This document shows positions 1,082 through 11,021 of a DNA stretch of 11,021 nucleotides, piece after piece. Within the stretch, counting starts at the first letter, position 1; every line of letters starts with the position of its first letter. A model generated the notes under the pieces. It was not told the DNA's origin. It saw only the letters and a list, made by a program, of their open reading frames with translations, and ran no database searches. Source of the stretch: Candidatus Naiadarchaeum limnaeum (GTDB lineage: Archaea > Undinarchaeota > Undinarchaeia > Undinarchaeales > Naiadarchaeaceae); assembly GCA_014189685.1 (NCBI GenBank), contig DVAB01000040.1, positions 1-11,021 on the forward strand, written 5' to 3'. Both the position numbers and the translations under genes were made by a program.

Positions 1082-4018
1082 ATGGATCAAAAGTTCAATT
1101 TAAAACAAATCGAAGAAAAAATTCTAAAATTTTGGAGTGAGAACTCTATTTACAAAAAAGTTGTGCAAAAAAATTCCAAAGGCCCGCGATTTAAATATAT
1201 TGATGGTCCGCCCTACACAACTGGTGCAATTCATTTAGGAACAGCTTGGAATAAAGTTTTGAAAGATACTGCTCTCAGATACAAGCGTTTTCAGGGATAC
1301 AATGTTCGCGACCAACCAGGCTATGACATGCATGGATTGCCAATTGAAGTTAAAGTTGAAGAGGATTTAAAATTAAAAAACAAGCGCGATATTGAGGAGA
1401 AAATCGGGGTTGAGAATTTTATTGAACTGTGTAGAAAGTTTGCGCTTGATAATTTGGATTTGATGAATAAGCAATTTTCTCGGTTAGGAGTTTGGATGGA
1501 TTGGGGTGACCCCTACATGACAATTAAAAATTCATATATTGAGGGCGCATGGTGGGCTTTAAAACAAGCTCATGAAAAAAATTATCTGTATTTGGGCCCA
1601 AAATCAATTACATGGTGTGCGCGCTGTGCAACTGCTCTAGCAAAACATGAATTAGAGTATGAAACAATTAAAGACAATTCCATTTTTGTAAAATTTCAGT
1701 TGGAAGATTCTCCTGATACTTATTTAATTATTTGGACCACAACTCCTTGGACGCTTCCAGCAAATTTAGGAGTTGCAGTTAATCCTGATTTCCAGTATGC
1801 AAAATTAAAAATTCTTTCGGAAAACGAACTTTGGATTGTTGCAAAGGATTTAGCTCCTGCACTGCTCGGCGCAATTGGGAAAAAATTTGAAATTGTCGAA
1901 ACTTTCTCAGGCGCGCAATTAGCAGGAACAAAATATGTTCATCCGTTTTTAGAAGAAGTTCCAATTCACAAAAAAATCAAAAGCGAATATCAAAATGCGC
2001 ATTCTGTTCTGGCTGTTGGAGAAGATGTTTATGAGAATTTTGTAACTTTAACTGCAGGAAGCGGATTGGTTCATACAGCTCCTGGCGCAGGTCCGGAAGA
2101 TTTTGAAGTAGGAAAACATTTCGGACTTCCAGGATTAACACTGATTGACGAAAACGGAGTTTTTACTTCTGACGGAGGAAAGTACAAAGGGTTTGTTGCG
2201 CGCAAGGATGATAAAAAAATTGTCGAGGAACTAAAAAAGCGCAATTTAGTTGTGCATGAGGCTGCTGTTTCGCATGAATATGCACACTGTTGGCGCTGCA
2301 AAAATGGAGTTGTTTACAGAGTTACAGACCAGTGGTATCTTGCTGTATCTAAATTAAAACAAAAAATGATTGAGGAAAACAAAAAAATTAAATGGACTCC
2401 TGATTGGGCAGGAGAAAAGTGGTTCCACAGCTGGATTGAGAATTTGCAGGATTGGTGTGTCTCAAGGCAGAGATATTGGGGGATCCCACTGCCAATCTGG
2501 AAATGTGCAAAATGCGATAATTTAAAAGTTATTGGCTCAAGAAATGAGCTTCCAGCAAACCTAAAAGATTTGCACAGGCCTTGGATCGACCAAATTACTT
2601 TTAAGTGTGAAAAATGTGGGGCAACAATGCGCCGCATTGAAGATGTTTTGGATGTCTGGCTTGACTCTGGAGCAGCAACTTGGGCCTCTTTGCCATTTCC
2701 AGAGAGTGGAAAAGAAATTTTGGACAAATGGTTTCCAGCTGATTTTATTTTAGAAGGAAAAGATCAGATTAGAGGATGGTTTAATTCTCTTATGAGTTTA
2801 TCAATGGTTTCCCACGGAATTCCAAGTTACAAATCAGTTTATATGCACGGCTTTGTTGCAGACGAACAGGGAATGAAAATGTCAAAATCTCTTGGGAATA
2901 TTGTTTCCCCTGATGAGGTTATTGAAAAATATGGAAGTGAAGCATTCAGATTTTATTGTTTGCGCGCAAACCCTGGCGAAGATTTGAGATTTAATTGGAA
3001 AGATGTTGAGGAGTCCTATAGAGCTTTAAACATTTTGTGGAACATTGCAGTTTTTGCGAAATATATGGAGCTCGAGAAATTTAATCCAGAAACTTACAAG
3101 TTAGATAAGAAAAAACTCAAGCCCGAAGACAAATGGATTCTCTCAAGAGTCAATACTCTGAATGAAAAGGTAACCCATGCTTTCGAATCTTACAATTTCC
3201 ACGAGGTTCCAAAACTCTTGCATGAATTTATTGTTGAGGATGTTTCAAGATGGTATGTAAAATTAATTCGAAACAGAACATGGGTTTCTGTAAAAGGAGA
3301 AGACAAGTTAATTGCGTTTAAAGTTTTGTATGATGTATTGAAAAAATATCTTGCCCTAGCAGCGCCCATTGTTCCTCTCTTGGCAGAAGAGATTTATCAG
3401 AGTTTAATCCACCCCTTGGATAAAAGGTTTCCTGACTCAATTCATTTGTTTGAGTGGCCAAAGCCTCAAACTGAATTTGTTGATTTGAGCACTGAGGAAA
3501 ATATGCAGGTTGCAAGAAAAATTGTTGAAACTACCTTAAATATCCGCGAAGAATCAAAAGTTAAGCTGAGATGGCCGCTTAAAGCTCTGGCTGTCAAGGG
3601 AGAAAAAGTTCAAACAGCAATCGAACAATTTTCAGACGTGATTAAAGAGCAAGCAAATGTAAAGTCTGCTAAATTCGGGGCAGCAAAAGGAGTTGAAAAA
3701 GACTTCGAATATGGAAAAGTTTACTTGGATACAGAAATAACCCAAGATATTATGGAAGAAGCTCTTGCAAGAGAAGTCATGCGCGCTGTCCAAGTTTTGC
3801 GCAAGAAGCATGGATTCAAAGTTGAAGAAAAAATTGTTCTCACTCTTTCAAGCGAGGATGAATTTTCGCGCGAAGCTCTGAATAAGTTTAGAAAAGAAAT
3901 AACTGAAAAAGTTGGCGCTGTTAAATTAGAGGTTTCTATTCAAAAATCCAAAGCAAAGCATGAAGGCGATTTGGATTTTGAGGGAAAACTTATACAGATA
4001 GCGTTTGATAGAAGATGA
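1082..4018 (+). CDS. ileS: Isoleucyl-tRNA synthetase (IleRS)
   Basis: Cytoplasmic class Ia synthetase that activates isoleucine with ATP and charges tRNA-Ile. The HIGH-type signature is HLGT at residues 51-54 in PPYTTGAIHLGT; GYDMHGLPIE (80-89) is typical of IleRS; KMSKS is at 599-603. The CP1 editing domain, which hydrolyses misformed Val-tRNA-Ile, shows TTTPWTLPAN (about 219-228) and HTAPGAGPED (331-340), keeping the His and the Asp at 340; the second His of the usual GHG is Ala336 here. Cysteine pairs at 403/406, 475/478 and 509/512 suggest zinc sites. At 978 residues it is somewhat shorter than many archaeal IleRS proteins. The ATG at 1082 opens directly into the conserved N-terminal helix. 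It overlaps the next gene by 14 bases, and a tRNA-Ile gene follows within 200 bases. Confidence 0.97.
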   Translation: MDQKFNLKQIEEKILKFWSENSIYKKVVQKNSKGPRFKYIDGPPYTTGAIHLGTAWNKVLKDTALRYKRFQGYNVRDQPGYDMHGLPIEVKVEEDLKLKNKRDIEEKIGVENFIELCRKFALDNLDLMNKQFSRLGVWMDWGDPYMTIKNSYIEGAWWALKQAHEKNYLYLGPKSITWCARCATALAKHELEYETIKDNSIFVKFQLEDSPDTYLIIWTTTPWTLPANLGVAVNPDFQYAKLKILSENELWIVAKDLAPALLGAIGKKFEIVETFSGAQLAGTKYVHPFLEEVPIHKKIKSEYQNAHSVLAVGEDVYENFVTLTAGSGLVHTAPGAGPEDFEVGKHFGLPGLTLIDENGVFTSDGGKYKGFVARKDDKKIVEELKKRNLVVHEAAVSHEYAHCWRCKNGVVYRVTDQWYLAVSKLKQKMIEENKKIKWTPDWAGEKWFHSWIENLQDWCVSRQRYWGIPLPIWKCAKCDNLKVIGSRNELPANLKDLHRPWIDQITFKCEKCGATMRRIEDVLDVWLDSGAATWASLPFPESGKEILDKWFPADFILEGKDQIRGWFNSLMSLSMVSHGIPSYKSVYMHGFVADEQGMKMSKSLGNIVSPDEVIEKYGSEAFRFYCLRANPGEDLRFNWKDVEESYRALNILWNIAVFAKYMELEKFNPETYKLDKKKLKPEDKWILSRVNTLNEKVTHAFESYNFHEVPKLLHEFIVEDVSRWYVKLIRNRTWVSVKGEDKLIAFKVLYDVLKKYLALAAPIVPLLAEEIYQSLIHPLDKRFPDSIHLFEWPKPQTEFVDLSTEENMQVARKIVETTLNIREESKVKLRWPLKALAVKGEKVQTAIEQFSDVIKEQANVKSAKFGAAKGVEKDFEYGKVYLDTEITQDIMEEALAREVMRAVQVLRKKHGFKVEEKIVLTLSSEDEFSREALNKFRKEITEKVGAVKLEVSIQKSKAKHEGDLDFEGKLIQIAFDRR

Positions 4019-4199: not shown

Positions 4200-4311
4200 G
4201 GGCCTGTAGCTTAGCCTGGTGGAGCGCCCGCCTTATATGGCGGCGTTTCATAACATATATGAAACCGCTTGTGAAAGCGGGAGGTCCCAAGTTCGAATCT
4301 TGGCAGGCCCA
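4200..4311 (+). tRNA. tRNA-Ile(UAU) with 38-nt intron
   Basis: Acceptor GGGCCTG (4200-4206) pairs with CAGGCCC (4304-4310), with discriminator A at 4311. The D-stem is GCTT/GAGC. The anticodon stem CCCGC (4227-4231) pairs with GCGGG (4277-4281). The T-arm is CCAAG-TTCGAAT-CTTGG. The anticodon loop reads C-T-TAT-A (4232-4237) plus A at 4276, giving anticodon UAU at 4234-4236. The spliced tRNA is 74 nt with no encoded CCA. Apart from the first anticodon base, the loop and the GCGGGAGGTCCC tract look like archaeal tRNA-Ile. No TATA box is apparent just upstream, where the zinc-ribbon gene ends 3 bases before, so it is probably cut from the ileS transcript. Isoleucine identity fits the adjacent ileS. 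Confidence 0.9.
4238..4275 (+). other. tRNA-Ile intron at position 37/38, BHB type
   Basis: The register fits the archaeal splicing-endonuclease substrate. The 5' bulge is T4236-A4237^T4238 and the 3' bulge A4274-A4275^A4276. A four-position central helix (4232-4235 with 4270-4273: C-G, U/U mismatch, U-G, A-U) separates them. The inner helix is 4239-4243 with 4265-4269, then 4246-4252 with 4258-4264, closed by a 5-nt loop. The central helix is imperfect, so this is a relaxed BHB. Confidence 0.75.
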
Positions 4312-4314
4312 TTA

Positions 4315-4419
4315 CAGCCGCCGACATGAACGTTTGTATAACTTGGAATCGGCTGGCGCTTCGGACTATATTGGGGGCATCGCTCGCCCTTTGAAAGGTG
4401 TGAGCTCGCGAGCCCCCAA
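4315..4419 (+). ncRNA. GC-rich hairpin region between tRNA-Ile and valS, candidate structured RNA
   Basis: Two stems are visible. CAGCCG (4315-4320) pairs with CGGCTG (4350-4355); an overlapping alternative is GCCGA (4320-4324) with TCGGC (4349-4353). TTGGGGGC (4371-4378) pairs with GCCCCCAA (4412-4419), an 8-bp perfect stem enclosing further short complementarities such as GCTCGC/GCGAGC. No convincing reading frame fits the segment. Its GC content stands out from the AT-rich surroundings, as is common for structured RNAs in AT-rich genomes. It could be a valS leader, an uncharacterised small RNA, or a processing signal for the tRNA. I found no clear C/D or H/ACA boxes. Confidence 0.4.
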
Positions 4420-4445
4420 ATAGGCCTAGTATTTAAGATCAAAAA

Positions 4446-9160: not shown

Positions 9161-9206
9161 TCCTCTGCAGGGGTACCCAAGTCCGGCCAACGGGGTATGG
9201 CTCAAG

Positions 9207-9252
9207 TCTTCAAACTTGAGCGTTGAAAACTCGCAAGAGTTTGATGAAAGAT
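9207..9252 (+). other. tRNA-Leu intron 1 (46 nt) at canonical position 37/38
   Basis: Bulges A9205-G9206^T9207 and A9251-T9252^A9253 are separated by four positions (9201-9204 with 9247-9250), of which only two pair. The inner helix is 9208-9216 with 9238-9246, eight of nine positions paired, and an alternative hairpin AAACTC-GCAA-GAGTTT (9227-9242) lies inside. The weak central helix makes it a relaxed BHB. Confidence 0.75.
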
Positions 9253-9284
9253 ACCATATGGCCTAGCGCCTTCGTAGGTTCAAA

Positions 9285-9364
9285 TGCTCTCGCGAGCACC
9301 TCCGAACAAAGTGAGGAGGGACAGCGAAATATTATTTCGCTGGATTTCTCGCAGAGCTCGAAAA
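9285..9364 (+). other. tRNA-Leu intron 2 (80 nt) inside the T-loop, position 59/60
   Basis: The T-stem is split around this insert. Matching 3-nt bulges AAT occur at 9283-9285 and 9363-9365. Between them TTC (9279-9281) pairs with GAA (9360-9362), and A9282 can pair with T9358 if C9359 is bulged. The inner stem is GCTCT (9286-9290) with AGAGC (9353-9357), continued after a bulged C by GCGAG (9292-9296) with CTCGC (9348-9352). It encloses two hairpins: CCTCC/GGAGG (9299-9303/9315-9319) and CAGCGAAAT/ATTTCGCTG (9322-9330/9334-9342). Because AAAT repeats at both ends, the junction could shift up to 4 bases without changing the mature tRNA. Confidence 0.75.
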
Positions 9365-9380
9365 TCCTACCCCCTGCACC

Positions 9381-10549: not shown

Positions 10550-11021
10550 ATTCCGGTTGATCCTGCCGGACAAGACTGCTATCGGAGTTCGACTAAGCCA
10601 TGCAAGTTTTCCGCGAGGAAGCGAAAGGCTGAGTAACACGTAGCTAACCTAATCTCAAGTGGGGCACAACCTCGGGAAACTGAGGATAATTCCCCATAGC
10701 CTTCGGATACTGAAATGTTCCAAAGGCAAAAGCTTCGGCGCTTGAGAATGGGGCTGCGGCCTATCAGCTTGTTGGTAAGGTAATGGCTTACCAAGGCTAA
10801 GACGGGTAGGGGCAGTGTGAGCTGGAGCCCCCAGATGGGTACTGAGACACGGACCCAAGCCTTACGAGGTGCAGCAGGCGCGAAACCTTCTCAATGCACG
10901 CAAGTGTGAAGAGGGGACTCTGAGTGTTTGTGCTTTTTGTACAAACTTTTAACCAGTGTAAACAGCTGGTTGAGTAAGGGCTGGGAAAGACAGGAGCCAG
11001 CCGTCGCGTTAATAACTGCAC
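10550..11021 (+). rRNA. 16S ribosomal RNA, 5' part (runs off the window)
   Basis: The gene opens with ATTCCGGTTGATCCTGCC, the archaeal 16S 5' end. Further landmarks appear in order: GACTAAGCCATGCAAG, GAGTAACACG, GGGGCTGCGGCC, ACTGAGACACGG, GGTGCAGCAGGCGCGAAACC and TAAGGGCTGGG. Helices such as the AACCAG...CTGGTT arm near 10950-10974 are intact. The 530-loop region begins at 10994 and differs from the near-universal sequence at several sites (see findings). The sequence is strongly diverged, as in several DPANN archaea. About 470 of the expected ~1,450-1,500 nt are present. Confidence 0.97.

Follow-up and report, generated by a model that had tools for sequence, protein, structure and literature searches.

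A family of T-loop introns at one bond of four tRNA genes in an archaeal genome with a single recognisable, loop-less splicing endonuclease gene

How can a tRNA gene with an interrupted T-loop yield a functional tRNA, and where does such an interruption come from? The question is raised by a tRNA-Leu(CAA) gene located in 11,021 nt of archaeal DNA (hereafter, the window, that is, the whole stretch analysed), which belongs to a 984-kb, 98%-complete genome, a size that would fit a DPANN archaeon. In the raw window, this gene was missed both by ARAGORN and by Rfam tRNA. The unspliced gene on its own likewise yielded no ARAGORN call, nor did the gene with only the 37/38 intron removed, and removal of only the T-loop intron resulted in a call of Leu(caa) with a 46-nt intron. 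When both introns were removed (Table 1), the acceptor, anticodon and T stems of the resulting 86-nt sequence were intact, its T-loop read TTCAAAT, and ARAGORN identified it as tRNA-Leu(caa). The two-intron structure, first proposed in an initial annotation of the window, is confirmed: both introns had been placed exactly to the base, and the class II product had been described correctly.

Table 1. Anatomy of the tRNA-Leu(CAA) gene, in window coordinates
Feature	Position	Strand	Basis
Exon 1, tRNA positions 1-37	9167..9206	+	ARAGORN on spliced exons
Intron 1, 46 nt at 37/38	9207..9252	+	Splicing in silico and ARAGORN
Exon 2, tRNA positions 38-59, ending in T-loop TTCAAA	9253..9284	+	
Intron 2, 80 nt at 59/60, T-loop; one of a four-copy intron family	9285..9364	+	Similarity to the Ala(GGC) intron; covariance model R1
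Two-hairpin insert within intron 2: CCTCC...GGAGG and CAGCGAAAT...ATTTCGCTG	9299..9344	+	Alignment A1
Exon 3, tRNA positions 60-73	9365..9378	+	

The Leu(CAA) pre-tRNA folds at -85 kcal/mol, compared with -58 for dinucleotide shuffles (z -5.7). Searches of the genome with Rfam tRNA and with the spliced exons identified one gene each for the leucine anticodons CAA, TAG, TAA, CAG and GAG; a second intact Leu(CAA), the case that the initial annotation had named as telling against its reading, was sought genome-wide in these searches and not found. Judging from its sequence, the tRNA-Leu(CAA) gene is very probably functional.

For comparison, five genomes from the same phylum, all from the same order (G001-G005), were available. 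At 37/38, Leu(CAA) has an intron of 46 nt in G003 and G004, as it does in the window. The 37/38 Leu(CAA) introns (window; L078, L079) keep CTTGAGCG-NTGA and NTGATGA and resemble a C/D guide, which could direct 2'-O-methylation of C34. The central helix of this intron is itself weak in the window's genome.

The T-loop intron, treated as an isolated oddity in the initial annotation, turned out to be one copy of a dispersed four-member family. Related introns occupy the same A59/U60 bond in Leu(CAA), Ala(GGC), Lys(CTT) and Arg(TCG), the latter three interrupted genes having first surfaced as low-scoring tRNA matches in the genome. The Ala(GGC) intron (C6:2096-2176) is 91% identical to intron 2 of Leu(CAA) (E 1.5e-26). 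In alignment A1, the Lys(CTT) intron has both ends in common with the Leu intron, the Arg(TCG) intron is a more distant copy, and the two-hairpin insert is present in the Leu and Ala introns and missing from those of Lys and Arg. Covariance model R1, built on the four introns, retrieved exactly these four as strong matches and no other. Intron removal restores a complete tRNA in all four cases, and each spliced product is recognised as the expected tRNA (4/4). Given these same-bond relatives in three other tRNAs, a chance origin of the tRNA-Leu(CAA) observation is excluded. Hairpins like those of the insert also occur, in reverse orientation, beside tRNA-Pro.

The introns resemble each other far more than do the genes that carry them. 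The first 14 intron bases are identical (14/14) among Leu, Ala and Lys, whereas the 20 exon bases preceding the T-loop match at 5/20 positions between Leu and Ala, 5/20 between Leu and Lys and 11/20 between Ala and Lys, and the exon bodies of Leu and Ala, whose introns are so similar, are alike only at chance level. Such near-identical introns in unrelated tRNA bodies argue that the T-loop intron was copied between tRNA genes, with boundaries that appear to coincide, exactly or almost so, with the splice sites. We consider it highly probable that the tRNA-Leu(CAA) of the window is functional, two introns being removed from its precursor, and that the T-loop intron belongs to a family copied among tRNA genes at a single bond.

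The spread of the intron could be explained by gene conversion between tRNA genes at the DNA level, without involvement of RNA, and the T-stems of Lys and Arg, which are identical (5/5 on both strands), are compatible with such exchange. However, the T-stem bases adjoining the T-loop already differ among Leu, Ala and Lys, with 2-3 of 5 matching, so that a conversion tract could extend no more than about seven bases to either side; we regard this route as possible but doubtful. Given that integrases use the T-arms and 3' ends of tRNAs, the insert might alternatively be the remnant of a mobile element, either a scar that is spliceable by chance or a segment derived from an intron-carrying attP, as proposed for the Caldiarchaeum tRNA-Thr (PMC3293823). 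Compatible with this precedent, the 3' exon of tRNA-Phe in G001 has a 22-nt direct repeat 104 nt downstream, and in the window's genome a second copy of 17 nt from the 5' part of tRNA-Thr(GGT) lies next to a repeat element. However, the intron boundaries coincide with bulge-helix-bulge (BHB) cut sites in 17/17 introns, exon-end repeats are missing from the examined flanks of all four copies of this genome and of 9/10 checked introns elsewhere, neither exon end is repeated in the window, and the intron start is unmatched in viral contigs, which together make a mobile-element origin unlikely. It is highly improbable that the four interrupted tRNAs are dead pseudogenes, with other tRNAs reading their codons. 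The genome's Leu(TAA) and Lys(TTT) could in principle take over UUG and AAG, but every stem is intact, the G3-U70 pair of tRNA-Ala included, no further copy of the four anticodons was found in the genome, and without Ala(GGC) the codons GCU/GCC would depend on Ala(TGC) reading all four.

In the G001 tRNA-Phe gene (L110, G001:C52), which carries a T-loop intron, the 22-nt repeat (TATCACGCTGGCCCCACCTGAT) starts 2 nt before the 3' splice site and looks like an attachment-site scar. A viral vector was considered and set aside, with neither the intron start nor the repeat element matched in the viral contigs; a generic BHB pattern had one match, in a phage capsid gene, which was judged to be due to chance.

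The junctions at A59/U60 were tabulated for 17 T-loop introns, four from the window's genome and 13 from other genomes. Bulges of 3 nt are predicted from sequence at both cut sites in all 17, the cut sites of Leu(CAA) intron 2 being AA^T and AA^T. In the central helix, positions 54-57 of the T-loop (TTCA or TTCG) pair with the intron 3' end, TTCR with YGRR. This helix has its full 4 bp in 14 of the 17 introns, namely, the Arg(TCG) copy and all 13 from other genomes, and in these position 57 varies together with its partner (A-U, G-C, G-U); the Leu, Ala and Lys introns have 3 bp, an A57-C mismatch and one extra U. By its predicted structure, the T-loop intron of the window is a relaxed BHB rather than a canonical one. 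Because the Leu, Ala and Lys introns are copies of one intron, their shared mismatch counts as one deviation, not three. In nearest-neighbour minimum-energy folds, the short, A/U-rich central helix is open in nearly all T-loop introns, including that of the window, so the BHB motif rests on comparison and not on predicted energy.

Which enzyme could cut these junctions? The genome contains one recognisable gene for the splicing endonuclease EndA, of 176 aa (PF02778 and PF01974), and its product gives a full-length alignment to the M. jannaschii homotetramer 1a79 (E 1.6e-36). One gene encoding N and catalytic domains in roughly 180 aa, with no second subunit found, matches the alpha4 type; the host differs from those with an (alpha-beta)2 EndA and a specificity loop. 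At the CSL/ASL site, which holds the loops of the Crenarchaeal and ARMAN enzymes, the 176-aa EndA has no insertion, nor do those of G002 and G003. One EndA gene each was found in G002-G005, and none was detected in G001 (75% complete). A second, diverged EndA subunit may escape both Pfam models.

According to the literature, relaxed introns are efficiently removed only by (alpha-beta)2 and epsilon2 enzymes (PMC6379350, PMC4033280), an alpha4 enzyme does not accept junctions such as the mismatched ones of Leu, Ala and Lys (PMC4033280, PMC6379350), and loop-bearing endonucleases accompany diversified introns (PMC12397907). The initial annotation had held that the T-loop intron needs an endonuclease of relaxed substrate range, such as a heteromeric or three-unit one, and had proposed to look up the subunit type in the genome. 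That look-up returned neither of these types but a single loop-less EndA of the alpha4 type, and with 14/17 T-loop introns forming a canonical BHB, the postulated need is unsupported. Because the invariant T-loop TTCR pairs with intron YGRR into a canonical BHB, a relaxed enzyme is unnecessary for most T-loop introns. An alpha4 enzyme should cope with canonical T-loop junctions, as in Arg(TCG), but those of Leu, Ala and Lys would be a difficulty for it.

Within the order, T-loop introns are unevenly distributed. In G001, introns at 59/60 interrupt four tRNA genes: Glu(TTC), Phe(GAA), Leu(TAG) and Glu(CTC). These are other tRNAs than those interrupted at this bond in the window's genome, where Glu(TTC) is uninterrupted. 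No T-loop introns were found in G002-G005, genomes that are 75-86% complete, and in G003 and G004 the Leu(CAA) gene has the 37/38 intron and lacks the T-loop intron. Searching 394 genomes, mostly of other archaea, with a model of eight introns revealed further T-loop introns in two unrelated families, f16 (G017, G039, G059) and f60 (G111, G274), the counts being a lower bound given the strict filters. From these sequences, the distribution is lineage-specific. Several candidates were discarded on inspection: an apparent T-loop intron in G005 is an N gap with duplicated ends, the R1 matches in G002 and G004 and the R2 match in G088 are not T-loop introns, and an R2 match that spans tandem intact-looking T-arms (L127) was left out of the count.

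The EndA proteins of the f16 and f60 genomes with T-loop introns contain a lysine-containing insertion of 6-8 residues at the CSL/ASL site, and the f60 genomes have a second, multi-domain EndA besides. In f60 (G111, G274; L119, L120, L129, L130, L134, L135), the alpha EndA with the loop is accompanied by a multi-domain EndA of 434-455 aa that resembles the ARMAN-2 enzyme.

In the mechanism that we propose, T-loop exon bases UUCA (54-57) would pair with the intron 3' end, leaving a 3-nt bulge on each strand; EndA, presumably the 176-aa protein, would cut at A59/intron and intron/U60, and a ligase would then join the exons. The archaeal exon ligase is RtcB. The intron could spread because, whichever the tRNA, half of the recognition helix is contributed by the invariant T-loop; one intron end would fit many tRNAs, making 59/60 a ready landing site. 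Copying would proceed by precise insertion at the splice bond, via either reversed splicing with subsequent conversion back into DNA or recombination that has its limits in the T-loop. Only tentatively do we suggest that a loop-less alpha4 EndA excises relaxed BHB introns, that the T-loop introns are mobile RNAs inserting precisely at A59/U60 by reversed splicing, and that loop-bearing enzymes are no precondition for intron proliferation. Against the main reading, that of a functional tRNA-Leu(CAA) spliced at both introns, speak the A57-C mismatch and extra U of the Leu, Ala and Lys junctions and the central helix left open in the minimum-energy fold. In addition, several of the interrupted tRNAs read codons that are within reach of a U34 sister tRNA, so that a defect need not be lethal.

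Transposition of tRNA introns in Thermoproteales was described by Fujishima et al. 2010, as related in PMC4090602 and PMC4033280; as far as these accounts go, it is, as here, a BHB-bounded, lineage-specific gain. The Thermoproteales reports note the same copying pattern, with a mechanism that is not known (PMC4090602). The present case comes from another, sparsely sampled archaeal lineage, with all copies found at 59/60, and with an alpha4-type EndA without a loop in contrast to the loop-bearing (alpha-beta)2 EndA of Crenarchaeota. The 59/60 bond is listed among the intron positions of archaeal tRNAs (PMC4090602), and known T-arm introns at this bond likewise have a BHB at their junctions; they are reported mainly from Crenarchaeota and Nanoarchaeota, whereas here the lineage has an alpha4 EndA and three copies have a central-helix mismatch. 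The T-loop introns of f16 and f60 share the bond and the TTCR/YGRR central helix with those described here but coexist with an EndA that carries the lysine-containing insertion missing here. In the Caldiarchaeum tRNA-Thr(GGU) (PMC3293823), tRNA disruption is likewise tied to mobile DNA, with tRNA fragments nearby, but the extra intron is at 24/25, and the window locus has neither a tRNA fragment nor an integrase. T-arm introns and intron transposition are thus already known; what is new is that they occur together with an imperfect junction and an alpha4 EndA that lacks the loop.

In the current view, tRNA introns of the non-canonical kind go with endonucleases that carry a lineage-specific loop (CSL or ASL). 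The lineage in which copying at 59/60 is found here has just one recognisable enzyme, of the ancestral alpha4 type, and all three imperfect junctions found among the 17 belong to the genome with the loop-less EndA. One enzyme and four small RNAs would suffice for a direct test of the co-evolution model. The recurrence of T-loops as intron sites would be explained by the invariant T-loop forming half of the recognition helix. Furthermore, because ARAGORN and Rfam at its normal cut-off missed such tRNAs, the codon sets of such genomes appear falsely incomplete.

Apart from the T-loop introns, a structured element at least about 115 nt long is dispersed through the genome in about 11 copies (window 4312-4425; L153, L149, L092, L150, L142, L143, L144, L147, L151, L152). 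Its signature is GACTAYATTRGGG...CCCYAAATAGGC, in many cases with CAGCCGCCGACATGAACG...CGGCTGGCGCTTCG ahead of it. Most copies are located beside or inside tRNA genes, including introns of tRNA-Trp and of a tRNA with a CAT anticodon; at tRNA-Thr(GGT), the element is preceded by the duplicated 17-nt 5' fragment of that tRNA. Another copy abuts a serine-like tRNA 3' half without an adjoining 5' half (L142/L073; G000:C8 about 2298-2367, minus strand), which may be a fragment or belong to a split tRNA. The window also encodes, between the genes for IleRS and ValRS, a tRNA-Ile (4200-4311) with a 37/38 intron and the anticodon UAU, where a modified CAU is usual. The window ends in the start of a 16S rRNA gene (10550-11021) with an unusual 515-region (GCCAGCCGTCGCGTTAATAACTGC), which, judging from its sequence, likely escapes standard archaeal primers.
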